Shown in pieces: positions 11,858-25,132 of a stretch of 28,086 nt of DNA (within the stretch, counting starts at the first letter, position 1; each line of letters starts with the position of its first letter). This DNA is from a virus: IMG/VR virus record IMGVR_UViG_3300011116_000551, positions 1-28,086 of that record; one strand, given 5' to 3'. Below the pieces are notes generated by a model. It was not told where the DNA came from, made no database searches, and worked only from the letters and a program-made list of their open reading frames with translations. The position numbers and the translations under genes are program-made.

Positions 11858-12238
11858 TTAGTATTTTACTTTTTTCAAACTTTTAATTTGCACAGCATAT
11901 TGGGCTTTAGTATGAGCATCCTTTGAGGAGGCGTGTTTAATAAACAATCTAGCTTGCTCCTTTTTCTCACGCAGAAATGGACATAGACTTTTGATAGTGT
12001 TGACGGCATTTTTTCCGAATACCCGAAAATAAAAGTAATTTCTCCAATATATATTTTTCTTGTTGTTTCTATCTTTTGAAAAGCTCCCTCCATACAATCT
12101 ATGAAAAGTTTTAACAACTTTCGGGTAGCAAGATTTAATACTGACAATCCTAGCACCACATTTTGATATATGGATACAGCCTTCTCCATCAAAGTAACCA
12201 GCAAGATACGAAAGTTCAATTTCACTAGGTTTTTTCAC
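11858..12238 (-). CDS. LAGLIDADG homing endonuclease, free-standing
   Basis: A 126-residue basic protein. LAGYFDGEG at residues 12-20 is the LAGLIDADG helix with the catalytic acidic residue, followed by the usual CIHI strand. The C-terminal part (LCPFLREKKEQARLF) also fits single-motif LAGLIDADG enzymes, which act as homodimers and cut long DNA sites to spread their own gene. It starts with GTG directly after the DNA polymerase stop. There is no sign of an intron or intein in the polymerase, so it is a free-standing homing gene. It is richer in Lys and AT than its neighbours, which suggests recent arrival. Confidence 0.85.
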   Translation of the reverse strand: MKKPSEIELSYLAGYFDGEGCIHISKCGARIVSIKSCYPKVVKTFHRLYGGSFSKDRNNKKNIYWRNYFYFRVFGKNAVNTIKSLCPFLREKKEQARLFIKHASSKDAHTKAQYAVQIKSLKKVKY

Positions 12239-14077
12239 TCAATGTGTCTCTGCCCAATTAAAGCCGATTTTAAACTCTCCGTCAAGAGGGCAACGGAACT
12301 TAAAATCCTTACCAGCTTGACGAATAGAGGCCACCGCTGTATTGCCCACTAACTCCTCAATTCCAGACTTTGCCTCAATCTGCAACTCATCGTGAATGTG
12401 GGCGACAATTCCGTAGTCTTTAGCAAACCCAAAGCCCTGTGCTTCTAGTGATCTTACTAAATTGATTGTGGCTTTCTTCATAATCAAAGCCCCTGCTGAC
12501 TGAAGAAGTACATTTAGAGAAGCGTGAGCAGAACGGACGGGTAAATGTCTGCCATCCAGACCAATCAAGTAGCCCCTTTGGTTTACTGCTAACTCAACGG
12601 CATCCTTAAGCCTTTTAATGGCTGGAAGCTTAGTCTGAAACTGGTCAATAATCTTTCTGCCTTCCCTTTCTCCTTTATTGATGATACTACCAATCTTGGC
12701 TGGCCCTGCTCCGTACAAGAAGGCGTAGATAAAGGTCTTGGCATCGTTGCGTGTAGGAAGCCCAGAAGCTTGTTGATTGGCTGTGTGAATGTCGCCCTCA
12801 AGAAGCACCTTGGCGTAGCTACCTCCGTCATAAGGAGCCATGAAGTGAGCCAAGCACCGCAACTCAATCCCGCTGGCATCTGCTCCAATTAACTTAAACC
12901 CATTTGTAGCTACAAAGAGGCTACGGCACTCTTCACCATAAGCAGACCCTACTCTTGGGACTTGAGCCATGTTTGGCCCTCGGTGTGTGCAACGACCTGT
13001 TACAGCCCCATTAGTGATTACTCTGCCGTGCATACGACCATCAGCTTTAACCAACTTCATCCAAGCTTCGTTACCCTCTGCAAGCTGGCCTAGTCGCTTC
13101 GATACTAGTAAGTATTCTAGTAGTGGCTTGGCCTCTGCAAATCCCATCCTTTCAAGAGCCGTAAGCACTTGTTCGTCAACTTTGGGTTTGCCATCTGGTG
13201 TAAACTCTTGGGGCTTCCAGCCTTTTTTGATGAAGCGGTTTGCAATCTGGTCTCTGCTTCCGGGGTTAAACGGGATGATTTTCTTTTTCTTGCCACCTTT
13301 AACAATGTCCTTTGCCTTGTAACCAGCCTGTACTGCTGACTTCTTTGTTGTCCATTCTTTTCCGTCTTGTGTTACCCATAAGGTAGACTTCATCTCTTCC
13401 TCATCTGGAGGAAACACAGCTTGCATATTCGCCTCGATCTCTGCCCTCTTCTTCTGAAGTACGGCACAAAGAGCTTCAGCTTTCGTGTGGTCAAACTTGA
13501 AGCCATAAGATTCTTGATTCTGCATAATCTTTGCAAACTCATGCTCTAGTTCGACACTAGCTTTAGATGGGTTCTTGGTCTGGATAAGCCTGTAAAGCTT
13601 CAAGGTAACGGCTACATCTTGTACGCAATAGTCCTCCATCGCTGGAGTCCATACCTCAAAGCTATTGTTCTCCTTGAAGTCACCCTTCTGCAATCCAATA
13701 CGGATACCCCAAGCCTTTAGAGAATGGGAACCAATCATCTCTTTGGGAAACCCATCGTTAAGCCTAGAGAAGTCATTCTCCTTTAGGTCGGGCCAAATGA
13801 GCCTAGTCAGTACTAAAGTATCCTCTATCACCTTTGGCGGTGTGAACCAACTATAGAGCTTCTTAAGAACCAGCAGGTCAAACCCGATTATGTTGTGTCC
13901 GATAATCCTGTCGGCACTAGCTAGTTTTGTGATACCAGCTTCAATAGAGTTGCCGTTTGGCTGTTGGTTGTACCTTGTGGTTGCACCAGAATCCATATCT
14001 GTAATTACCAAACAATGAATCTTGGTAGTCTTTTCGACTAGATGATCTGATTCCAAGTCAAATACAAGTGTTTTCAT
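12239..14077 (-). CDS. DNA polymerase, family A (T7 gp5-like)
   Basis: A 612-residue replicative polymerase (T7 gp5: 704). The proofreading domain has D7 and E9 (FDLESD), D67 (HNIIGFDLL) and the Y150/D154 pair. The polymerase domain has motif A around D400 (GADASGIELR), motif B with K447 and Y455 (AKTFIYAFLYGAG) and motif C H562-D563 (IHDELQ). Y455 corresponds to T7 Y526, the residue linked to efficient dideoxynucleotide incorporation. The shorter length suggests a reduced thioredoxin-binding insertion. The gene starts from the conserved AGGTAAAACACAAC leader and follows the primase-helicase stop by 17 nt. Confidence 0.97.
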   Translation of the reverse strand: MKTLVFDLESDHLVEKTTKIHCLVITDMDSGATTRYNQQPNGNSIEAGITKLASADRIIGHNIIGFDLLVLKKLYSWFTPPKVIEDTLVLTRLIWPDLKENDFSRLNDGFPKEMIGSHSLKAWGIRIGLQKGDFKENNSFEVWTPAMEDYCVQDVAVTLKLYRLIQTKNPSKASVELEHEFAKIMQNQESYGFKFDHTKAEALCAVLQKKRAEIEANMQAVFPPDEEEMKSTLWVTQDGKEWTTKKSAVQAGYKAKDIVKGGKKKKIIPFNPGSRDQIANRFIKKGWKPQEFTPDGKPKVDEQVLTALERMGFAEAKPLLEYLLVSKRLGQLAEGNEAWMKLVKADGRMHGRVITNGAVTGRCTHRGPNMAQVPRVGSAYGEECRSLFVATNGFKLIGADASGIELRCLAHFMAPYDGGSYAKVLLEGDIHTANQQASGLPTRNDAKTFIYAFLYGAGPAKIGSIINKGEREGRKIIDQFQTKLPAIKRLKDAVELAVNQRGYLIGLDGRHLPVRSAHASLNVLLQSAGALIMKKATINLVRSLEAQGFGFAKDYGIVAHIHDELQIEAKSGIEELVGNTAVASIRQAGKDFKFRCPLDGEFKIGFNWAETH

Positions 14078-14091
14078 GTTGTGTTTTACCT
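14075..14091 (-). promoter_or_regulatory. Conserved leader before DNA polymerase
   Basis: The 17 nt ending in the polymerase ATG (AGGTAAAACACAACATG) are identical to those ending in the SSB ATG. AGG is the likely ribosome binding site, and the A/C-rich spacer should be unstructured, favouring initiation. Confidence 0.6.
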
Positions 14092-14094
14092 AGC

Positions 14095-15690
14095 TTATTC
14101 CAACTCTTCTGGCACTTCAATCTCTGAATCGGGTATAGCAATCTCCTTGAGCCGACCTGTTTCCTTGCTATACTCAAGACGGCAACTAATACCAGTCTCT
14201 CCAGTAAACCTATTCTTAAGGATACGGATACTAGTAATGTTCCTATCGTTGCCTTCAGCTTGCTGGTCACGCTCTAGGCCAATCACTATGTCGGATAACT
14301 GGGCAATACCAGCAGAACCTCGAAGCTGTGACAGGCTTGTGGTTGCACCATCTTCATGCCCCCTGCCTTCTGGACGCTTAAGGTGAGATACAAGAATCAT
14401 CCCAATCTTAAGCTCTTCCACAAGACTACGGAGCTTGGTCATGGTGTTGTCAATAAGCCTACGCTCGTCTCCGTCACCCATACCAGACACTACAATGCTC
14501 AAATGATCTAATACGATGTACTCACACCCACAGCCCCTTGCCATGTAGCGAACCCTATTAAGAAGGTTATCTGAATCCAGCGACCCAAAGTGGTCATAGG
14601 TAAAGAACTTCTGGCTAATCGTACCATTGAATAAGTTCTTTAGCTCATCGGCTGTTACGCTGTCTGGCTTTATATGCAACGGCTTGCTTGCTTCAATCGC
14701 CAAGATTCCTAAAGCAGTTCGCCTTACCGACTCCTCAAGAGCTATGTAACCAATAGTCTTGTCGTTGCGTAGAAGCCAATGGGCAATTTCCCTACAAAAC
14801 TGGCTCTTACCAATACCAGAACCAGCACAAATGGTAACTAACTCGCCCTTACGGATTCCGTGGGTCATAGCTGATACACCAGCATAAGGGTAGGAAACAG
14901 ACTCTTGTAAGTCTATTTTTGTAATATAATCCCAAAGCTCGTTGCCCCCTACAATTCCATCTGGCCTAAACTCTTTAGCACTCCATATAGCATCAATAAT
15001 CTCTGGCCCTCTGCCAGCAACAAGTAGCTCGTTAGCATCCTTCATCTGCAACGAAGCAATCCTAGCTTTCCCCGGACTCAACAAAGATGCACATTCCTTT
15101 GAAGCCTTCTTACCTGCTTCATCCATATCGAACATAAACACGACTTTCTCAAACTTCTCAACCCAATCAATATTTCTACGAAGGGCCTTGGTAGCCGATT
15201 GAGCACCAGTAGGGATGGATACTACAGGCCACTTGTTGCCTTGAGCTTGGGATACAGAAAGGCAATCAATCTCACCTTCAGTAATAACAAGCATCTTTCC
15301 ACCATCCCTAAACAAGTGCTGTCCGAATAAAGTCATCTCCGAAGCATCCCCAAGAATCATAAAGTCCTTGTTGGGAAAGCGTAGCTTCTGGGCTACTGGG
15401 TTGCCTTCTTTATCTTTGTACTCAGCGATCTGAACAGGCTTTCCGTTAAAGTCTCCGAGCTTGTAACCGAACTTCTGGCAAGTCTCCATGTGGATGTTGC
15501 GTTTTGTCAAAGCAGTAACATTACCTTCTATTAAGTTAGCCATATAGATATTTGGTTTCTCCTTTATCTCCCCGTTGCTTTTAGAATATGCCGAACAAGA
15601 GAAGCAGTAAGCTGACCCATCAGAATACTCTGCACGGGCATCTGATGAGCCACACTTACTACACTCTGTATGTCTTATAAAGTCAGCCAT
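14095..15690 (-). CDS. Primase-helicase (T7 gp4-like)
   Basis: A 531-residue bifunctional protein (T7 gp4A: 566). An N-terminal zinc-binding domain carries C10, C13, C29 and C32. The TOPRIM primase core has E138/E140 in LVITEGEID and D188/D190 in FMFDMDEAGKK. The helicase domain has a Walker A (GSGIGKS, residues 290-296), a Walker B (YIVLDHLS, D395) and HLKRPEGRGHEDG further on. An acidic C-terminus (EVPEELE) would contact DNA polymerase, as in T7. It unwinds DNA at the fork and makes primers. It overlaps the endonuclease gene by 16 nt. Confidence 0.96.
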   Translation of the reverse strand: MADFIRHTECSKCGSSDARAEYSDGSAYCFSCSAYSKSNGEIKEKPNIYMANLIEGNVTALTKRNIHMETCQKFGYKLGDFNGKPVQIAEYKDKEGNPVAQKLRFPNKDFMILGDASEMTLFGQHLFRDGGKMLVITEGEIDCLSVSQAQGNKWPVVSIPTGAQSATKALRRNIDWVEKFEKVVFMFDMDEAGKKASKECASLLSPGKARIASLQMKDANELLVAGRGPEIIDAIWSAKEFRPDGIVGGNELWDYITKIDLQESVSYPYAGVSAMTHGIRKGELVTICAGSGIGKSQFCREIAHWLLRNDKTIGYIALEESVRRTALGILAIEASKPLHIKPDSVTADELKNLFNGTISQKFFTYDHFGSLDSDNLLNRVRYMARGCGCEYIVLDHLSIVVSGMGDGDERRLIDNTMTKLRSLVEELKIGMILVSHLKRPEGRGHEDGATTSLSQLRGSAGIAQLSDIVIGLERDQQAEGNDRNITSIRILKNRFTGETGISCRLEYSKETGRLKEIAIPDSEIEVPEELE

Positions 15691-16064: not shown

Positions 16065-16665
16065 TTGAGGACTCCTTGGGTTTGGTTAGTTCTGGGAATG
16101 TTTCGCCTTGAGCTACAAAGCCCTCTTCTTCCGAAGAGAAGCCGAAGCTTTCAAAGCTAGAGCCACCAGAAGAAGGCTCTTTTAGGTCGATCACTTGCAC
16201 GGCACGGAGACGGAGGGTAACCCCAACTCCCAATGCGGGTACAAACCAAGGACTAGCTTCACAACCAATCTTGATTGTAGAGCCCCCACCAATCAGCTTG
16301 TCGCAAGGCGAGCCTTTGCTGTCGAACAGGGCGGGACGCATCTCGATGCTCTCCCCGTTCTTGGTCTTTACTTTAGCTGGCAGTTTGAAGTTGATCTCCA
16401 GCTTGTCGCCTTCCTCGTTCTCTTTCCAAGGGTAGTCTGCGAGCTTGAGCTTATTCTTCTTCTGCTGTTTGCAAGTCTCCTCGTAGTATTCTTTGAGGAG
16501 TTGTTTTACTGACTGAACAAACGAACTGGCTTCTTCTTTAGAAACTAAAAGTTTCGTAGAATAAACACCATCTTCGTTGAATTTAGTATCTGCTCTGTTG
16601 AGCTTTGGGTACATCGCCACCCCCTTTGGGCTGGTCAAACGTACACGATTATACTTCTTGTCCAT
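16024..16665 (-). CDS. Single-stranded DNA-binding protein (T7 gp2.5-like)
   Basis: A 213-residue OB-fold protein. It begins NRVRLTSPKGVAMYPKLNRADTKF, a typical gp2.5-family start, and ends in an acidic tail closing with an aromatic residue (PELPEDF). In T7 this tail binds polymerase and helicase and competes with DNA for the OB cleft. The protein coats single strands and promotes annealing. It starts from the AGGTAAAACACAAC leader and overlaps the endonuclease gene, so the two are probably coupled. Confidence 0.93.
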   Translation of the reverse strand: MDKKYNRVRLTSPKGVAMYPKLNRADTKFNEDGVYSTKLLVSKEEASSFVQSVKQLLKEYYEETCKQQKKNKLKLADYPWKENEEGDKLEINFKLPAKVKTKNGESIEMRPALFDSKGSPCDKLIGGGSTIKIGCEASPWFVPALGVGVTLRLRAVQVIDLKEPSSGGSSFESFGFSSEEEGFVAQGETFPELTKPKESSNVTSKTPELPEDF

Positions 16666-16679
16666 GTTGTGTTTTACCT
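16663..16679 (-). promoter_or_regulatory. Conserved leader before SSB
   Basis: The same AGGTAAAACACAACATG sequence as before DNA polymerase. Related A/C-rich leaders occur before the GATase (AAGGAAAAACACAATATG) and scaffold (GGAGTAAACACACAATG) genes. Confidence 0.6.
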
Positions 16680-16697
16680 TTCTGTGTTTTGGTGTGT

Positions 16698-16944: not shown

Positions 16945-19203
16945 TTATTTAATAAGATACTTACTATGGATTATCTGGTCAATGGGAAAACCCCCATAGC
17001 AAGGCTCTAAAATGAAGTTAGTAGGCAAACTAATAGATGAAGCTACTTCCGTCTTTAAAGCTTTGAGTAAAGGATTTTTAAATATGTCCCTCATAGTTTC
17101 TGCCACAACTTTCCTCATAGCAGGTACACGACTTGCATGACAACCAAAACAATCGTGAATTGTAAAAAGGCTGTTGATGTTTTCCTTATTCATTCTATCA
17201 ACGGAAATATGAACAAGGCTGGCATCGAGGCTGTGAATGAAGTTCGGGGCAAAGCTGTTTATCTGTGCGTCCTTGTCAACCCTGCTGGTTACCTTGTTGG
17301 TTAAGTTCATGTACCTAATTGTGTCACCAATACGCAACTTGACGGACTTGGACTTGCTTACGAAGTAGGGCTGGTAGACAGGAAAACCAGACGGACTAGA
17401 CCACACCATAGGACAGCCATTGTCCGTTGGTATTTTAGCTAGTTGCTTCAGCCAAGCCATAGTTTCCTGTGGGGCTTGTACCAGTTCGCCAAGTACCTTG
17501 ATTATCAAATCAGCTAGGTAAAGCCCTTGGACTATAGAGCAGTTAGTTTGTTCCATTAGCTGTTGGGACATTCCATACCTAGATACCCCATACGGAATGG
17601 TCATAACGGGCCTCTTTACTAGCTTCCTATTGCATCCGTGGTGCAACCAAAAGGTAGCCATCTCCCCCGGAGTACCCAATAGGTTGTGTTGTACCTTTAG
17701 AGCTATAACCCCGTAGATGTCCTTGGGTACATCGCTGGGTAGGACATTGGTAAGTAAAGCTGTTTCAGCATCGCCTGTAAGTAGGGAAAGAATCTGTAAG
17801 CCGTTGCTCGTAGCATCTAAGCATACTGGGAACCTCTCTGCTCCTTTAACCCACGCAAAGCACCACCTTAAGAATTGCCACGGCTCGTCTGCTTCATGCC
17901 ACCACCTGCACCCGTAGGGGTCAGCAACAACCTTTCTAATGTCGCTATCATGCAATTCAGCCCATGCCACACGCTCCTCGTAGCTAACCTTGTCGCATCC
18001 GAAGTGGGCAGAACCAGCTACCTTGAACCAGTACTTACCCTCCTCAGTCAAAGGCACGGCTTCGTTAAAGTCTCCCAAGGCTTTTGATATGTCATCCCTC
18101 TGTGGCCCAATATGGGTCGGTAGGTAATAGACTCGTCCTCTAAAGTCTAATTGCACAGGTAAGTAGTAGGGCTGGCCTTGGAGTTCTTTAGCCATGAGAA
18201 TCTGTTGGGTAATAAAGTAACCCCTAGCTCTGTTCCACACATTGTAGGTATGCGACCTCCACATTCCTTTAATTCTGTCCTTGGCTTGATCTGGGGTAAG
18301 AGCATCCAAGTTCTCCCTAATCACTTCCTTATGGCAGTTCACGGGTTCCCCATTAATCTCTAGGCCGTTCTTGTAGTAAGTATCCAGCACCTCCAGCACA
18401 TCCGTATTAATCCTCCAAGCCACCTGTTGCATAGCTTGTACGCAATTACGGACGCTTTCTGGCTGGGTCTTGTAAAGGGCTTCCTGCTTCTTTGACCTGC
18501 ACTTAACCCAAAAGGCGTGAGGGTCTGAACCAGCCTCTACCCTTGGGAGCATAAGAGGCCGTAGTACTTCAGTTCCTTCAAACTCTTTCATCCATTCAGC
18601 ACAAGACTTGGATGCAACAATGTAGTTAAGTCTAGCCTTACCAGTTCTTGTTGTGACTACCTCACACAGCCCTGTGCTTTTAATAAAGAGTTCAATAAGT
18701 ACACCACCTATAGATGCTTTCTCAATCGTACTCCAAGCACTAGTCTTATTCTTCATGCCCCGAAAGGCGGTCTGCATCTTGTGTCGATGCCCCTTGCGTA
18801 GCTTCATTCTTCTCTTGATCGAGTTCCATTCTCTGCTGGGGCTTTCCTTGAGCCTAGCCTCATGCTCTACAAGCCTACCTAATTCAAAGGCTACAGAAGC
18901 AAAGGTTCTCTGGGTAGAGATGCCATTCAAGACAGCCCGACAGGTAAGGGCCGAAAGCTCCAGAGGCTTTAGTTGCACCATTAAGGCAACTGACTTGTGC
19001 TTGGGGCCGGGAGAAGTCTGGGCCTTATCAATCCACAAGGCTATGGTTTCAGCTACAGAAGCAACTGAGTGGCGTAGCAAGAAGCCTTGACCACCAGACA
19101 AACTCTCCCTGCCAGTCGAGACATTCCTAGCCTTGGCTTTGTCTCTCTTTAGCTGGGCTTCGTATACTGCCTTATGGTCTAGTTGTGTTTGCGTTAAACT
19201 CAA
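16945..19203 (-). CDS. Single-subunit DNA-directed RNA polymerase (T7 gp1-like)
   Basis: A 752-residue phage RNA polymerase (T7: 883). Active-site residues are present: D463 in CLDATSNGLQ, K530 and Y538 in LVKRPVMTIPYG and D684 in TIHDCFGCHA, matching T7 D537, K631, Y639 and D812. LDFRGRVYYLPTH near 352 and FAPNFIHSLDASL near 651 are further family blocks. It transcribes the phage middle and late genes from its own promoters, which I could not identify. The start appears to be TTG overlapping the previous stop (TTGA); there is no good alternative. The shorter length comes mainly from the N-terminal domain. Confidence 0.96.
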   Translation of the reverse strand: MSLTQTQLDHKAVYEAQLKRDKAKARNVSTGRESLSGGQGFLLRHSVASVAETIALWIDKAQTSPGPKHKSVALMVQLKPLELSALTCRAVLNGISTQRTFASVAFELGRLVEHEARLKESPSREWNSIKRRMKLRKGHRHKMQTAFRGMKNKTSAWSTIEKASIGGVLIELFIKSTGLCEVVTTRTGKARLNYIVASKSCAEWMKEFEGTEVLRPLMLPRVEAGSDPHAFWVKCRSKKQEALYKTQPESVRNCVQAMQQVAWRINTDVLEVLDTYYKNGLEINGEPVNCHKEVIRENLDALTPDQAKDRIKGMWRSHTYNVWNRARGYFITQQILMAKELQGQPYYLPVQLDFRGRVYYLPTHIGPQRDDISKALGDFNEAVPLTEEGKYWFKVAGSAHFGCDKVSYEERVAWAELHDSDIRKVVADPYGCRWWHEADEPWQFLRWCFAWVKGAERFPVCLDATSNGLQILSLLTGDAETALLTNVLPSDVPKDIYGVIALKVQHNLLGTPGEMATFWLHHGCNRKLVKRPVMTIPYGVSRYGMSQQLMEQTNCSIVQGLYLADLIIKVLGELVQAPQETMAWLKQLAKIPTDNGCPMVWSSPSGFPVYQPYFVSKSKSVKLRIGDTIRYMNLTNKVTSRVDKDAQINSFAPNFIHSLDASLVHISVDRMNKENINSLFTIHDCFGCHASRVPAMRKVVAETMRDIFKNPLLKALKTEVASSISLPTNFILEPCYGGFPIDQIIHSKYLIK

Positions 19204-20424: not shown

Positions 20425-21408
20425 CTAAGCCTCTAATGCTCCTACTGCTTCCAGTAAGTTTGTTGGGGCTAGGTGTGCGTACCGCATTGTCATCTGAATT
20501 GTTTTATGACCCAACCATTCTTTGACAACTACAATCGGAACGCCTCGTTGAACAAGTCTGCTTGCACAGGTATGACGAAGGGAATGAGGGACAAACTCTT
20601 TGTCGTCCGTCAAGCCCATTTGATCTCGTATGCTTGTCCAAGCCCTGTTCACCTCGAACTGCTTAATGTGACCAAAGGGGCTGTCTCCTCCAACCTCCAT
20701 TAGCTCGTTCATAACAATAACAAGGCCAGTAGTCATAGGGATGCTCCTGCTTTCCCCACTCTTGGTGTCCCAGAATGTGACCACCTTGTTTGTCCAGTTG
20801 AAGTCAGCCCAAGTCAGCTTCAAAGCTTCCCCAACTCTTGCCCCTGTATAAAGCAAGAAGATGAACAAAGGCTTCAGCTTGTCACTTACCTTGGATAAGA
20901 TTACACCCTCTTCCTCGCCGGTAATGTAGCGGATTCTGCCTTTGGTTTCCTTCTTGATTGGAAAGATAAACCTTTTGGTTACCAATCCTCTTTCAAGAGC
21001 AAACCGAAGCATACGACTTAAGCAAGACAGCTTGCGGTTTATGGTCGCATCAGAGTTACCTAGAGCTTTTAAGGATACCACCCAGTTGTCTAGGTCTCCT
21101 TGAGTGAAGTGAGCTACGGGCGTACTAGCACCAAAGTAACGCACCACATGGTCGCTGTTAAGCTTGCTTGTGTTTTCACTCTTAGCTCCTTTCCAAACAA
21201 GCGTGTAGGTCTGGTCTTTGAGTTCTTGCCAAGTCGTAAGGTTTCTTTCGGTCTCTGGCAAAGGCTTACCAGCTAGACAAGCCCTGCGTAAGTCCATTAG
21301 GTAACCCTCGGCTTGCGTCATAGAACCGAAACGCCTTCGTATACGCTTGCCTTTGGTTGTGAAGGATACATTAAATGAATCCCCTGCTGATTGAATGGAG
21401 CCGTTCAA
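20425..21408 (-). CDS. int: Tyrosine site-specific integrase
   Basis: A 327-residue tyrosine recombinase. The catalytic set is complete: R191 (YTGARVGEAL), K216 (DTKSGESRSI), H275 and R278 (HSLRHTCASRL), H301 (LGHKTI) and the nucleophile Y310 (MRYAH). The N-terminal 55 residues resemble the AP2-like arm-binding domain and residues 57-155 the SAM-like core-binding domain. It would insert the phage genome into the host chromosome and make it temperate. The start is TTG overlapping the preceding stop, with AAGGA about 9 nt upstream. The repeat-rich attP-like region lies directly upstream, as in integrase-bearing marine podoviruses. Confidence 0.95.
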   Translation of the reverse strand: MNGSIQSAGDSFNVSFTTKGKRIRRRFGSMTQAEGYLMDLRRACLAGKPLPETERNLTTWQELKDQTYTLVWKGAKSENTSKLNSDHVVRYFGASTPVAHFTQGDLDNWVVSLKALGNSDATINRKLSCLSRMLRFALERGLVTKRFIFPIKKETKGRIRYITGEEEGVILSKVSDKLKPLFIFLLYTGARVGEALKLTWADFNWTNKVVTFWDTKSGESRSIPMTTGLVIVMNELMEVGGDSPFGHIKQFEVNRAWTSIRDQMGLTDDKEFVPHSLRHTCASRLVQRGVPIVVVKEWLGHKTIQMTMRYAHLAPTNLLEAVGALEA

Positions 21409-21589: not shown

Positions 21590-21680
21590 AACGCACAGGT
21601 AATTTAAAGCAAAGGGAAAAACACTCTGTTTGAAAAATATAAGCACATCTTATAAACGCACAGGTAAAACGTACAGGTAA
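21590..21680. repeat. Three 13-bp direct repeats, likely integrase arm sites
   Basis: AACGCACAGGTAA occurs at 21590-21602 and 21655-21667, and AACGTACAGGTAA at 21668-21680. The second and third copies abut exactly. Short direct repeats next to the integrase gene and a tRNA-like core are the usual form of arm-type binding sites in attP. Confidence 0.6.
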
Positions 21681-21699
21681 TTGCCAGCCAGTTGTGGCT

Positions 21700-21738
21700 C
21701 ACTATCATAAATCACTATCATATATATCTATCATATAT
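21700..21738. repeat. Three tandem 13-bp repeats containing CTATCATA
   Basis: Three consecutive 13-mers (21700-21712, 21713-21725, 21726-21738) share CTATCATA in fixed phase, followed by a very AT-rich stretch and an 8-bp hairpin (TTATTTAT/ATAAATAA, 21747-21765). They could be excisionase or repressor sites in attP, or origin iterons. Confidence 0.55.
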
Positions 21739-21920
21739 ATATCTTCTTATTTATTTCATAAATAAAGTAGTATTCTATATATCATATATTATTCTATTTA
21801 TCTTTTTATATTCCTTACAGAGCAAGAAGGATGGATTTTTCTGGATTTTCAACACAAGGGGTAGTGGTGCTGGTTTGGCTAGGCCACTAGCGGTTGTGGT
21901 TGCATTAGGCATCTAGGCAC

Positions 21921-21955
21921 AAAAAAACGAGGGAAGGGAATCGAACCCCGCCCCC
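21921..21955 (-). terminator. Strong intrinsic terminator that resembles a tRNA T-arm
   Basis: On the minus strand a 10-position stem (GGGGGCGGGG with CCCTTCCCTC; seven G-C pairs, two G-U, one mismatch) closes the loop TTCGATT and is followed by G and seven T. It lies 19 nt after the stop of the last gene of the amidoligase operon, so it should end that transcript. GGTTCGATTCC is also a canonical tRNA T-loop with flanking stem, so the same DNA may be the tRNA-derived att core. Confidence 0.75.
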
Positions 21956-21973
21956 GCTTGTTGCATCAATTCT

Positions 21974-22246
21974 TTATAGTGCTGAAAGGTACTTTTTTAA
22001 TACCTTAAAATCTTCGAGTGATACTTTTTTCACTTCTCCAACTTTAGATATGATTTCACCGCCCTGCCAATAGCCTCCGCCATTGGCGGGTTCGGCATCA
22101 TCATAGCCATACCAAGTTTTTGCAATATGGTCGGCATACTTTAACGGGTTGCCATCAGTCTTGAATATGAACTTTGTCGTGTGTTCATACTCGCCGTGTT
22201 GTTCTTCAAGTTCCGCTAAATAGTGTTTTTCGATTGTGTTTTTCAT
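21974..22246 (-). CDS. Small protein in the amidoligase/GATase operon
   Basis: A 90-residue protein, MKNTIEKHYLAELEEQHGEY and onward. The middle has KYADHIAKTWYGYDD and the end has SKVGEVKKVSLEDFKVLKKYL. I have a vague memory of similar small proteins in phages and accessory loci, but no named family. A strong AAAGGAG stands 8 nt before the ATG, better than those of the genes before it, so it may be made in larger amounts. It is the last gene before the terminator. It could be a partner or the substrate peptide of the amide-forming enzymes (inference). Confidence 0.7.
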   Translation of the reverse strand: MKNTIEKHYLAELEEQHGEYEHTTKFIFKTDGNPLKYADHIAKTWYGYDDAEPANGGGYWQGGEIISKVGEVKKVSLEDFKVLKKYLSAL

Positions 22247-22262
22247 TTCTATTTCTCCTTTT

Positions 22263-22367
22263 TTATTTGTGGTTTTTTATGTAGCTGACTAGCCCCAAAA
22301 AGAGCCAGCCTAGCACGATAAGAATTTTGACCCCTGCCCATAGGTCGTTTTGGTTTTGTTGCATCAT
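22263..22367 (-). CDS. Micro membrane protein (34 residues), second copy type
   Basis: A very short frame starting in an ATGATG overlap with the GATase stop. It encodes MMQQNQNDLWAGVKILIVLG and then WLFLGLVSYIKNHK: a short polar Gln/Asn N-terminus, one membrane helix (about residues 10-29) and a basic C-terminus, so the tail is expected on the cytoplasmic side. It has the same plan as the 33-residue gene at the head of this operon. Translational coupling and conserved layout support it, though length alone would not. Confidence 0.6.
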   Translation of the reverse strand: MMQQNQNDLWAGVKILIVLGWLFLGLVSYIKNHK

Positions 22368-23089
22368 TCCCAAGCCCCTTCCGTATTGTGAAAGGATTGC
22401 TGTTCCCATTTCTTAATACTATCGGCCTCAATAAGCCTCTCCACGGCATCATCATCGTCAATCGGGACAACGCCCCCAGAGGAGGGAATGATTTGCACGG
22501 GCGAGCGTCCGTAGTAAGAGGGCGGGCAAGTATAGGAACCAGTTTTCCACCAGTCATGGCAGTTTTTGTAAGAGCTGTTGGAGTACCAAACACCCCCCGC
22601 CCAATGTCCAGCGGTTTCATTTATGATGATGAATTTTCCAGTATAATTGAGGAAACATAACTTTGACCCCTTGGCATACTCGTGAAGCATTTCGACTAGT
22701 GGAGGTGTGATTCCTCCCGTATCCCTCACGAGTGGTTGCATCACTTTTTGGTTGAAGTGCCAAGTATCAGATCGTGTTGGCTTGTCGGCGGTGGATATTG
22801 GCAAACACCCGTTATGAATAAAGGCAAGCCCCTTGGATATATTGAACGGGTGGCAGTTTTCCAAATCTGTAGCCCCGTGCGTCTTTATTCTAGCGTGTAT
22901 GATAGCGGTATGTTTTTCTAGGGTCATTACCTTGTCAATCCACTCTCCCGCCTTCATCGTGCGAAAAGTGCGTAGGCGTTGCCCGTCTGCCCAAGCTATA
23001 CCGAACCCGTCGGGATTACTTTCGGCTGAGTTTTCAAGATTCTTACGGCTGATTTTTGCGTTCTTAGTTTTTACGATTGCTATGCACAT
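22364..23089 (-). CDS. Class II glutamine amidotransferase (Ntn hydrolase)
   Basis: A 241-residue protein with the full N-terminal nucleophile layout: C2 exposed after Met removal (MCIAIV), NPDGFGIAW at residues 25-33, HARIKTHG at 65-72, HPF at 80-82, HNG at 92-94 (oxyanion hole) and SDTWHF at 107-112. Such domains hydrolyse glutamine and pass ammonia to a partner synthetase. This one has no synthetase domain of its own. The gene lies 32 nt after the amidoligase gene with AAGGA and the A/C-rich leader before its ATG, so the amidoligase is the natural partner. The C-terminal 80 residues hold a Cys/Trp/Tyr-rich segment of unknown role. Confidence 0.88.
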   Translation of the reverse strand: MCIAIVKTKNAKISRKNLENSAESNPDGFGIAWADGQRLRTFRTMKAGEWIDKVMTLEKHTAIIHARIKTHGATDLENCHPFNISKGLAFIHNGCLPISTADKPTRSDTWHFNQKVMQPLVRDTGGITPPLVEMLHEYAKGSKLCFLNYTGKFIIINETAGHWAGGVWYSNSSYKNCHDWWKTGSYTCPPSYYGRSPVQIIPSSGGVVPIDDDDAVERLIEADSIKKWEQQSFHNTEGAWE

Positions 23090-23121
23090 ATTGTGTTTTT
23101 CCTTTTTGGTTGGTTGTTTAG

Positions 23122-24087
23122 TTACTCCTCAGAACCTTCCGTATTCATCCCGCTTGCGTTGTTATCGGGATAAAACTTCCGCTTTCTAGCCATAAACCAT
23201 TCTTTAGCCTCCTGCGGGATTTCGCTACAATTCATCATAGCGTCAATCGTGGGAAGCGTGTTACGGCTTGCCCCAATGCAAAGGCTTACCCAATGTTTGA
23301 TTTTATCGGCTGAAGTTGTCCCGTTTAAGAGCCTTACTTCAATCGTCCCGTGTTCGGTGTAGGCTTTCCAATTAATTGCCATATAGCGGTCATACTCTTC
23401 GGGATTGACCCCTTCGACATTCAAACGGCAATAGCTATTCCCAAGCCTAGAAGGAGGAACGGCAAGTTTAAGCCAAGGGAGAGCAGAGACTAGGCGATGG
23501 TATCTTCTCCAAGCGGTTGCACGGCTGACATTCCGCTGGTCAAGGTGAAGGTGCAATCCGCAAGTCTTATTCACTTGGGCTTGTGATAGTGATAAAGCGT
23601 GGCAAAACTTTTCCAGCCTGTTTTCACTCACACCCCGCACATAAACCACATTAGCTTCTAGCCCCATATATCCAGAAGGCGGGCAAATAGAGCCGTCACT
23701 CCCAAGGGCGATGAACTTGCTAGTGCGTAGTGGTTGCGTGTTCACATTACGGGGAATAAAAAACTCAATTTCAACGCCTACAAATTCCCCTTGGTGACTC
23801 TGAATGTTTAATAAATCTCTAATTCCAAGCTCCCGTTTCATCACGGGAACGACAGGGCGATGAACTTTCCTCTTCTCCTGCGTAGCAGACCAAAGCCAAG
23901 CCCCCGCCCGTTGGAAGCTTGGGATATGTCTTTGGGGAAGTCCTACTGGATAATCGGTGGAGTCAAAGCGTAGTTGACGGGCTACAAATTTAAGTTTCCT
24001 CCCAATCTGCATTTTTAATTCTAGGGGATGCTGATTTATATCCAGACCGCCCCAACGTAGTGCCTTTTTGTATAGTGTGTTTTTCAT
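23122..24087 (-). CDS. Putative amidoligase (glutamine-synthetase-like fold)
   Basis: A 321-residue protein. After a basic N-terminal region of about 100 residues come the motifs of the phage and bacterial amidoligase family (Amidoligase_2): GVEIEF (104-109), GSDGSI (129-134), GLEANV (142-147), CGLHLHLD (176-183) and HGTIEVRL (246-253). The Glu, His and Arg residues in these blocks match the metal and ATP sites of the glutamine synthetase-like superfamily. The family is predicted to join a carboxylate to an amine or ammonia using ATP. Adjacent GATase supports ammonia as the nitrogen source. The substrate is unknown: candidates are a peptide, a cell-wall component or a host protein. Confidence 0.85.
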   Translation of the reverse strand: MKNTLYKKALRWGGLDINQHPLELKMQIGRKLKFVARQLRFDSTDYPVGLPQRHIPSFQRAGAWLWSATQEKRKVHRPVVPVMKRELGIRDLLNIQSHQGEFVGVEIEFFIPRNVNTQPLRTSKFIALGSDGSICPPSGYMGLEANVVYVRGVSENRLEKFCHALSLSQAQVNKTCGLHLHLDQRNVSRATAWRRYHRLVSALPWLKLAVPPSRLGNSYCRLNVEGVNPEEYDRYMAINWKAYTEHGTIEVRLLNGTTSADKIKHWVSLCIGASRNTLPTIDAMMNCSEIPQEAKEWFMARKRKFYPDNNASGMNTEGSEE

Positions 24088-24094
24088 TGTGTTT

Positions 24095-24196
24095 TTATTT
24101 CTTTCTATTTGTTAGGACATAAACCGCACCCCAGAAAAACCCCGCCACACAGCAGAGAATCCCGAAGGAGAGGAGAGTCCAGATTTCGTTTTGCAT
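24095..24196 (-). CDS. Micro membrane protein (33 residues) heading the amidoligase operon
   Basis: A very short frame encoding MQNEIWTLLSFGILCCVAGF and then FWGAVYVLTNRKK: a five-residue polar start, one membrane helix (about residues 7-28) and a basic end. The ATG lies only 6 nt after the -10 box, so the transcript is probably leaderless or nearly so; no ribosome binding site is visible. It ends 8 nt before the amidoligase gene. The second micro membrane protein in the operon shares the Q-N-[ED]-[IL]-W start, which supports both as genes. Confidence 0.6.
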   Translation of the reverse strand: MQNEIWTLLSFGILCCVAGFFWGAVYVLTNRKK

Positions 24197-24202
24197 AAGT
24201 TG

Positions 24203-24231
24203 AAAGTAGTCGGGAGTGGTAAGAGTGTCAA
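24203..24231 (-). promoter_or_regulatory. Sigma70-type promoter of the amidoligase operon
   Basis: A perfect -35 box TTGACA (24226-24231), a 17-nt spacer and a weak -10 box TACTTT (24203-24208) lie directly before the first gene. The -10 ends 6 nt before the ATG. Activity in the lysogen, independent of phage RNA polymerase, is inferred. Confidence 0.65.
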
Positions 24232-24824
24232 GGGATATTTATCTCTTTATAAAAAGATATTTAGTGTGTTTTTGGATAGAGGATAGCGGACAACGGCATC
24301 GATCATTTCTAGGGGCATTTACGGCTCACCTTGTCGATTTGAGTTTTTGGCAAGCGAAAAAGAGTGATAGAGAATGATAGTAGGTTTGTTAATGGTTTGC
24401 CTATGCTTTTCTAATGTTTACAAGGTATAATAAAAAAACGAATTAAAACTCTTTTTGCGTCACGATTGCGGGCGTTGAACCTTAAGCAAAAGCAGAAAAA
24501 CTCCCTTGCCCCCGGCATCGACCCCGCTTGCCCCCGGTGCGAGTGGGGAATAGGTTGCATTGGCTGTGTAAACATTCTCAATCTCTTTACCTGCGAGGGA
24601 GAGCCTGTCCAGATTGCCCAAAGTTTGCCCGATATTTTCCTTGTTTCATCCATCGTGCAACGGCTGGGGCTGATAGAGCCTCGACACGACCTCGACCGCC
24701 CAAAAAAACGCCCGACCCCCTATGGGGGGAAAACGCACCAGTAATTCACGTTAATACTCTCTCAGATTTTTTCACCAAAATCTTAACCCCCCTATTAGCC
24801 AGCCTTCTATCGTATTACACCCCC

Positions 24825-24859: not shown

Positions 24860-25132
24860 ATGAAAACACTATTAATTGCCTTAACCTTACTAACCGCAAC
24901 CCTACAGGCTGAAGATAACTGGTCAGAGTTCTTGGGTGTCTCCCATCAGTCCAGAGGCACGACTACAATCGTCAATAACACAGCTTTTACCAGCACAGGT
25001 GTAGTTACTAAAGTCCGTGACACCTATTTTGGTGCTGGTGGAATCACTATTAAGCAGGGCGACAGCTATTATGGCCCTCGTACATATACGACCAAAGTTG
25101 GTAGTGATTACTTTGGTAGCGGGTCTAGGTAA
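24860..25132 (+). CDS. Secreted repeat protein, candidate lysogenic-conversion gene
   Basis: The only plus-strand gene, 90 residues. Residues 1-17 (MKTLLIALTLLTATLQA) form a Sec signal peptide with an A-x-A-like end. The mature part, from about residue 45 on, contains three units of about 14 residues with the pattern [TI]-K-x-x-x-x-Y-[FY]-G: TKVRDTYFGAGGIT, IKQGDSYYGPRTYT and TKVGSDYFGSGSR; a fourth, weaker unit precedes them. Short beta repeats of this kind occur in small envelope proteins of Gram-negative bacteria. Own promoter, opposite direction and a host-like secretion signal suggest a moron expressed from the prophage. It converges on the minus-strand operon with an 8-bp overlap. Confidence 0.75.
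   Translation: MKTLLIALTLLTATLQAEDNWSEFLGVSHQSRGTTTIVNNTAFTSTGVVTKVRDTYFGAGGITIKQGDSYYGPRTYTTKVGSDYFGSGSR

Follow-up and report, generated by a model that had tools for sequence, protein, structure and literature searches.

The locus described here is probably an exchangeable slot in a temperate T7-like phage, currently occupied by a glutamine-dependent amide ligase of two subunits. Pairs of an amidoligase and a glutamine amidotransferase (GATase) are a known and widespread phage accessory, present in phiEco32, LUZ24, Marvin, the OM43 phages and Arthrobacter phages, and the version studied here, two genes with a 321-aa ligase, is perhaps the smallest natural one. What is new is a minimal ligase that lacks a Cys-rich N-terminus, a locus in which neither a COOH-NH2 ligase nor a cyclotransferase was found, and a slot bounded by edge genes. 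The enzyme classes, the intact predicted active sites, the near-obligate pairing and the purifying selection are strongly supported by sequence comparison and structure models.

The window, meaning the whole stretch of DNA that was analysed, is an entire virus record of 28,086 bases; it is a linear fragment, and contigs of relatives from the same group measure 38-39 kb. As the first-pass annotation had proposed, the phage is T7-like: the window encodes a single-subunit RNA polymerase (16945-19203), a T7-type SSB, endonuclease I, a 5'-3' exonuclease and a tail tube protein. Adjoining the locus is a tyrosine integrase (20425-21408, minus strand; PF00589 99.3 bits, phrog_1 209 bits), from which we read the predicted lifestyle as temperate. 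Among the genome contigs searched, no bacterial chromosome yielded a close relative (best 37% identity), so it is from the integrase alone that lysogenic expression of the pair is deduced. A T7-type phage promoter motif was also considered and set aside, since the direct repeats yielded no convincing promoter family; one such repeat family, D6, is located at gene starts (leader AAAACACAAYATG).

The amidoligase and its predicted glutaminase partner

The upstream gene of the pair (23122-24087, minus strand) encodes a 321-aa protein that PF12224, its predicted fold, its invariant residues and its dN/dS place among the GS/GCS-like carboxylate-amine ligases. The earlier call of an amidoligase, made from the letters of the sequence, is borne out by a profile search, in which Amidoligase_2 (PF12224) matches at 60.9 bits against a cut-off of 22, with the motifs present; the protein also matches phrog_2443, 'amidoligase enzyme'. 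The structure model, predicted as a single chain, has a mean pLDDT of 72, and its residues from about 97 to 300 align to the GS and YbdK folds. Glutamine synthetases give the best match (Z 12.8, rmsd 3.3, 168 residues, over 97-279), and YbdK, a GCS-type ligase, reaches Z 10.4, so that the modelled fold is glutamine-synthetase-like. Foldseek by itself was weak for this protein (best E 7e-3), and the fold was settled by VIA realignment. The predicted active site of the GS/GCS-type catalytic fold retains its acidic, His and Arg residues; G104, E106, E108, D131, E144, G177, H179, N239, E250 and R252 are invariant in 35/35 sequences, and a dN/dS of 0.06-0.11 indicates strong purifying selection. 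All 74 relatives whose ligase is longer than 340 aa carry at least two CxxC motifs in the N-terminal part, a Cys-rich region with a weak resemblance to zinc fingers of the LIM and treble-clef kinds. The ligases of the window group and of L017 measure 311-321 aa and are without this region, and the window therefore carries the minimal form. With only two genes, a ligase lacking the Cys-rich region and no third enzyme detected, reconstitution should be easier.

The downstream gene (22364-23089, minus strand) encodes a 241-aa protein assigned to the class II glutamine amidotransferases of Ntn type, with Cys2 as the predicted nucleophile, on the basis of PF13230, a GlmS-like fold and its motifs. 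This too had been proposed from the sequence, and the profile GATase_4 (PF13230) agrees, at 29.4 bits against a cut-off of 23. The pLDDT of the model is mostly above 90 for residues 1-175 and below 50 for the C-terminal 60 residues. It matches the glutaminase domain of GlmS (1xff, E 3.3e-7) and also PurF and EgtC, indicating that the modelled fold is GlmS-glutaminase-like. The RxxTHG, HNG and Asp motifs are in place (C2, R67, T70, H71, N93, G94, D108); 31 of 32 sequences have Cys2, all have R67, T70, N93 and G94, and D108 is conserved. The single GATase with Ser2 instead of Cys2 is that of L120, where an upstream ligase was likewise not detected. The GATase is also under strong purifying selection (dN/dS 0.05-0.07).

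These fold matches bear on an alternative in which the two enzymes form a gamma-glutamyl add/remove pair like EgtA/EgtC of ergothioneine synthesis, the ligase linking an amine to glutamate or some other acid, and the Ntn amidohydrolase stripping or transferring the glutamyl group, with no supply of ammonia. YbdK among the ligase matches, the EgtC structures 4zfk and 4zfl among those of the GATase, and the cyclotransferase that accompanies amidoligases in LUZ24 and in Bacillus phages would all suit such a pair. However, the ligase matches are headed by glutamine synthetase, and the best GATase matches, in structure and sequence alike, are GlmS and PurF, which are ammonia-producing glutaminases. 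The NCBIfam EgtC profile (TIGR03442) scores the GATase at a weak 20.5 bits, far below its cut-off of 218.65, which indicates a similarity of fold only and not an EgtC equivalog. Moreover, no gamma-glutamyl cyclotransferase (PF06094) was found in six contigs of the window group, while controls matched in 9 of 14 genomes. We consider this alternative unlikely, and continue with the glutamine-dependent amide ligase as the preferred reading.

Searching viral contigs with an alignment of the GATase returned 142 relatives, of which the best 80 were kept; pairing was counted over unique loci, from viral contigs and from phages in databases, whose readable upstream region was 600 nt or longer. An amidoligase lies directly upstream, on the same strand, in all 82 unique loci found through the GATase (drawn from the best 80 of the 142 and the database phages), and a ligase profile used without iteration left the count unchanged at 82/82. 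The spacing between the two genes is -34 to +77 nt in nearly all loci, and the frequent stop/start overlaps suggest coupled translation. Among 22 bacterial or MAG contigs, the ligase is upstream of the GATase in most; several of the apparent cases without a ligase are ORF-start artefacts, and L104 and L120 are ambiguous. The first-pass annotation had held that homologues occurring without a GATase would speak against its operon. In the 82 loci with readable upstream DNA the GATase always comes with a ligase, but the reverse fails, as amidoligases in Porphyromonas and Bacillus phages have no adjoining annotated GATase. Seen from the GATase side, the pairing is therefore close to obligate. The first-pass annotation was also right to compare the pair with those treated by Iyer and colleagues.

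The slot, its edges and its cargo

The earlier description gave the locus its own promoter and terminator, and both are recognizable in the window and in its relatives. The predicted promoter (24197-24235, minus strand), called by its consensus match, is of host sigma-70-like type, TTGACA-17-TACTTT, and ends about 8 nt ahead of the first ATG. Of 9 aligned sequences, 8 keep the pattern TTGACA-17-TAnnnT, the exception being L002, which lacks the -35 hexamer, and most relatives have TATCTT as the -10 element where the window has TACTTT; this weak -10 explains why the element is absent from the listing of an automatic scan. An intrinsic terminator hairpin closes the locus (21918-21968, minus strand), with a predicted RNA fold of -21.8 kcal/mol (z -3.4). 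L122 and L002 fold in the same way, and an alignment of 8 sequences shows the hairpin in relatives, with a both-sided change in L122. Reading 21925-21965 as a tRNA/tmRNA att site was rejected, as no tRNA was found there, Rfam matches were sub-threshold and the terminator fold is kept in relatives. The apical loop of the hairpin resembles a T-loop.

Between these signals, the enzyme genes are flanked by two short genes for single-span membrane proteins. The left edge is formed by tm33 (24095-24196, minus strand; 33 aa, its membrane span judged by eye from the sequence), which none of the 9 readable relatives lacks, not even L122 with its different cargo, and a search with tm33 gives matches almost confined to this phage group. 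The right edge is formed by tm34 (22263-22367, minus strand; 34 aa, MMQQNQNDLWAGVKILIVLGWLFLGLVSYIKNHK), whose start region is common in relatives. Its start had been placed at 22409; 22367 is the most likely position, where the start and the stop of the GATase gene overlap in an ATGA, an arrangement that relatives share. With dN/dS of 0-0.25 for tm33 and 0.07-0.15 for tm34, mostly below 0.2, both are judged to be real genes.

The cargo between these edges can differ. L122, whose genes neighbouring the slot are 94-98% identical to those of the window and whose integrase is on L155, the opposite end of that contig, retains tm33 and tm34 together with the promoter region and the terminator, but has a DUF932 gene (86 bits) and a GP88 gene (89 bits) between tm33 and tm34. 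The stop of GP88 and the start of tm34 overlap, as would be expected of a genuine junction. Among 11 typed group members, 10 have the ligase and GATase (two of them only partly sequenced) and one has DUF932 and GP88; the alternative cargo is thus represented by a single contig, for which an assembly error is possible, though the two flanks, like the tm34 overlap, are consistent with the contig. DUF932 and GP88 are possible functional equivalents of the ligase/GATase pair, and the slot with its alternative cargo indicates that phages carry the pair as an optional item that can be exchanged.

Comparison of the window with two relatives points the same way. The ligase and GATase share 90% and 93% amino-acid identity with those of L002, whereas the RNA polymerase shares 50% and the integrase 58%; for L006 the values are 83% and 93% for the enzymes as against 95% and 98%. 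The closest cassette, that of L002, therefore belongs to a phage whose polymerase is only 50% identical, which argues that the cassette passes from one phage to another. At the DNA level, identity with L002 is about 0.88 up to 22240 and less than 0.45 just beyond it, with a similar drop upstream of 24205, so that the exchanged segment includes tm33 and tm34, and dS is 0.8-1.8 in the enzymes against 0.36-0.51 in the backbone genes measured. The contrast in identities, the sharp drops and the higher dS of the enzymes indicate that cassette alleles have been exchanged. Taken together, these comparisons strongly support a cargo slot of which tm33 and tm34 are the conserved edges, and a cassette that travels from phage to phage.

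The locus had first been described as a membrane-linked unit of five genes, in which tm33, tm34 and the 90-aa protein p90 (21974-22246, minus strand) would work with the enzymes. Part of this description stands: all fully readable relatives that have the ligase keep the order tm33-ligase-GATase-tm34, the two membrane proteins are under purifying selection, and the L002 exchange takes in both. However, p90 is a sporadic second cargo, found in only one of the 9 readable close relatives (L004), and so falls outside the unit; its position is taken in L002 and L159 by two small Cys-rich ORFs. The membrane link does not hold either, as an unrelated gene pair stands between tm33 and tm34 in L122, where both persist, and they are therefore not tied to the enzymes. 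Nor were counterparts of tm33 or tm34 found in distant loci with the pair; the absence of a membrane partner is another observation that the first-pass annotation had said would count against it. L122 and the gene distribution led us to reject tm33, tm34 and p90 as parts of the system, and a joint five-gene function is very improbable. The exchangeable slot with a two-enzyme cargo remains the preferred description.

Proposed chemistry, targets and related phage cassettes

In the chemistry that we propose, the class II GATase would split glutamine through its N-terminal Cys2, exposed by removal of Met, and the ammonia would be handed to the GS/GCS-fold ligase encoded upstream, which would activate a carboxylate with ATP and convert it to an amide. 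The two proteins would presumably form a physical complex for the transfer of ammonia, and the host-type promoter of the locus would drive their expression, possibly in the lysogen. Passages in PMC10580990, citing Iyer et al. 2009, and in PMC5498523 propose for related phage cassettes a modification of the cell wall and the exclusion of other phages; the role in exclusion or host fitness suggested by the first-pass annotation is an older hypothesis from this literature. The substrate may be an envelope precursor, for example a peptidoglycan stem-peptide carboxylate, whose change would alter the host surface against other phages; this is the leading guess, and we hold it tentatively. No gene for a precursor, a transporter or a cell-wall function was found linked to the pair, and we found in the literature no published experiment on the chemistry of phage amidoligase/GATase pairs, their action on peptidoglycan or exclusion. 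More generally, the slot, with its edges, promoter and terminator, might circulate two-gene modules, of which the ligase/GATase module would protect the lysogen or the infected cell by a glutamine-dependent modification of the host, a proposal that we likewise put forward only as a possibility. In PADLOC-DB, the models of known anti-phage defence were unmatched by the ligase, the GATase, p90 and the DUF932 and GP88 proteins of L122, and a known defence system was accordingly set aside.

The same enzyme class would also be compatible with a target inside the cell: during host takeover the pair might modify a nucleic-acid component, or a protein of the host or of the phage. The CxxC motifs that precede the catalytic domain in the long relatives are consistent with such a target, and in other phages the pair has replication or regulatory neighbours (primase/helicase in MEP402, a ParB-like protein in Arthrobacter phages). 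The window ligase, however, is without the Cys-rich N-terminus, and its pair adjoins the integrase, away from the replication genes. We regard this target as rather doubtful. The Cys-rich N-termini of the long ligases, which point to protein or nucleic-acid targets, were counted against our best explanation.

Among known cassettes, those of the LUZ24/phiEco32/RIO-1-like podoviruses resemble the window in having Amidoligase_2 directly upstream of a class II GATase (gp18-gp19 in LUZ24) and in their proposed role (PMC5498523, PMC3890496). They are larger, with a COOH-NH2 ligase, an ATP-grasp/RimK-like ligase and a gamma-glutamyl cyclotransferase, and comprise seven genes in PSA-HP1 (PMC5498523, PMC3890496). 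No COOH-NH2 ligase (PF14395) was found in the window and five relatives, whose contigs are possibly incomplete, while the LUZ24 positive control matched; the RimK-like profile PF08443 had no match in the window group, but it equally missed LUZ24's own annotated enzyme. LUZ24 gp18 is unmatched by the profile of the window ligase clade.

The OM43 phages MEP401 and MEP402 (PMC10580990) have a GATase 42% identical to that of the window, with the ligase directly upstream and a short overlap. They differ in a ligase of about 550 aa with an extra N-terminal part, and in that their pair adjoins replication genes, no counterpart of tm33 or tm34 was found and no integrase is annotated in the stretch read. 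Podovirus ctgrD200 (MW202733) shares the order integrase, amidoligase, GATase, small ORFs and RNA polymerase, whereas its GATase is 25% identical, its ligase has 518 aa, its pair is on the opposite side of the integrase and a counterpart of tm33 or tm34 is not established. Arthrobacter phage Ottawa has a ligase/GATase pair (65-66), and Marvin a GATase with a large ORF upstream (gp105-gp106); both are actinobacterial phages of distant sequence, at about 27-29% identity.

Variable positions in the ligase/GATase locus

The cargo position between the two membrane-protein genes tm33 and tm34, which holds the amidoligase and the glutamine amidotransferase (GATase) in other phages, is filled in the relative L122 by a DUF932 and GP88 gene pair (L122:9636-11340; phrog_12094 and phrog_1392), possibly a functional alternative to ligase and GATase. 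The site of the gene for the 90-residue protein p90 (window 21974-22246, minus strand) is a second variable position within this locus, being occupied in relatives by two small Cys-rich (CxxC) ORFs (L002:7843-8198 and L159:670-1122). Some loci (L035, L070 and L108) carry at least two amidoligase-like ORFs next to a single GATase gene. In a GATase relative at L120:6001-6951, the nucleophile Cys is replaced by Ser and no amidoligase was detected upstream; this protein is likely a non-glutaminase offshoot.

DNA near the integrase operon

The locus is set apart from the integrase operon by approximately 170 nt of mainly non-coding DNA (21804-21971), which retains 84% identity to L002, the relative with the closest cassette, whereas the surrounding genes retain 50-60%. 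This region is possibly attP or a regulatory region. The AT-rich stretch at ~21600-21800 is a common start or end point of several independent contigs in the phage group (L005/L157; L122/L155, of which L155 is the opposite end of the L122 contig; L007; and L156), and may mark genome ends or attP. One of the contigs ending there overlaps itself by exactly 123 nt, which is probably the assembler k-mer.

A shared leader and accessory genes

The leader AAAACACAAYATG (repeat family D6; 14075-14096, 16663-16684 and 23087-23108) lies directly 5′ of the DNA polymerase, SSB and GATase gene starts, and is possibly a translation-initiation signal of this phage. A gene on the plus strand (24860-25132), opposite to its neighbours, encodes a 90-residue product in which a signal peptide is apparent by eye; it is 92-98% identical across close relatives and 53% identical in L002, and seems to be a secreted accessory protein. 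A 126-residue ORF (11858-12238, minus strand) that, by eye, resembles LAGLIDADG homing endonucleases is located between the genes for the exonuclease and the DNA polymerase.
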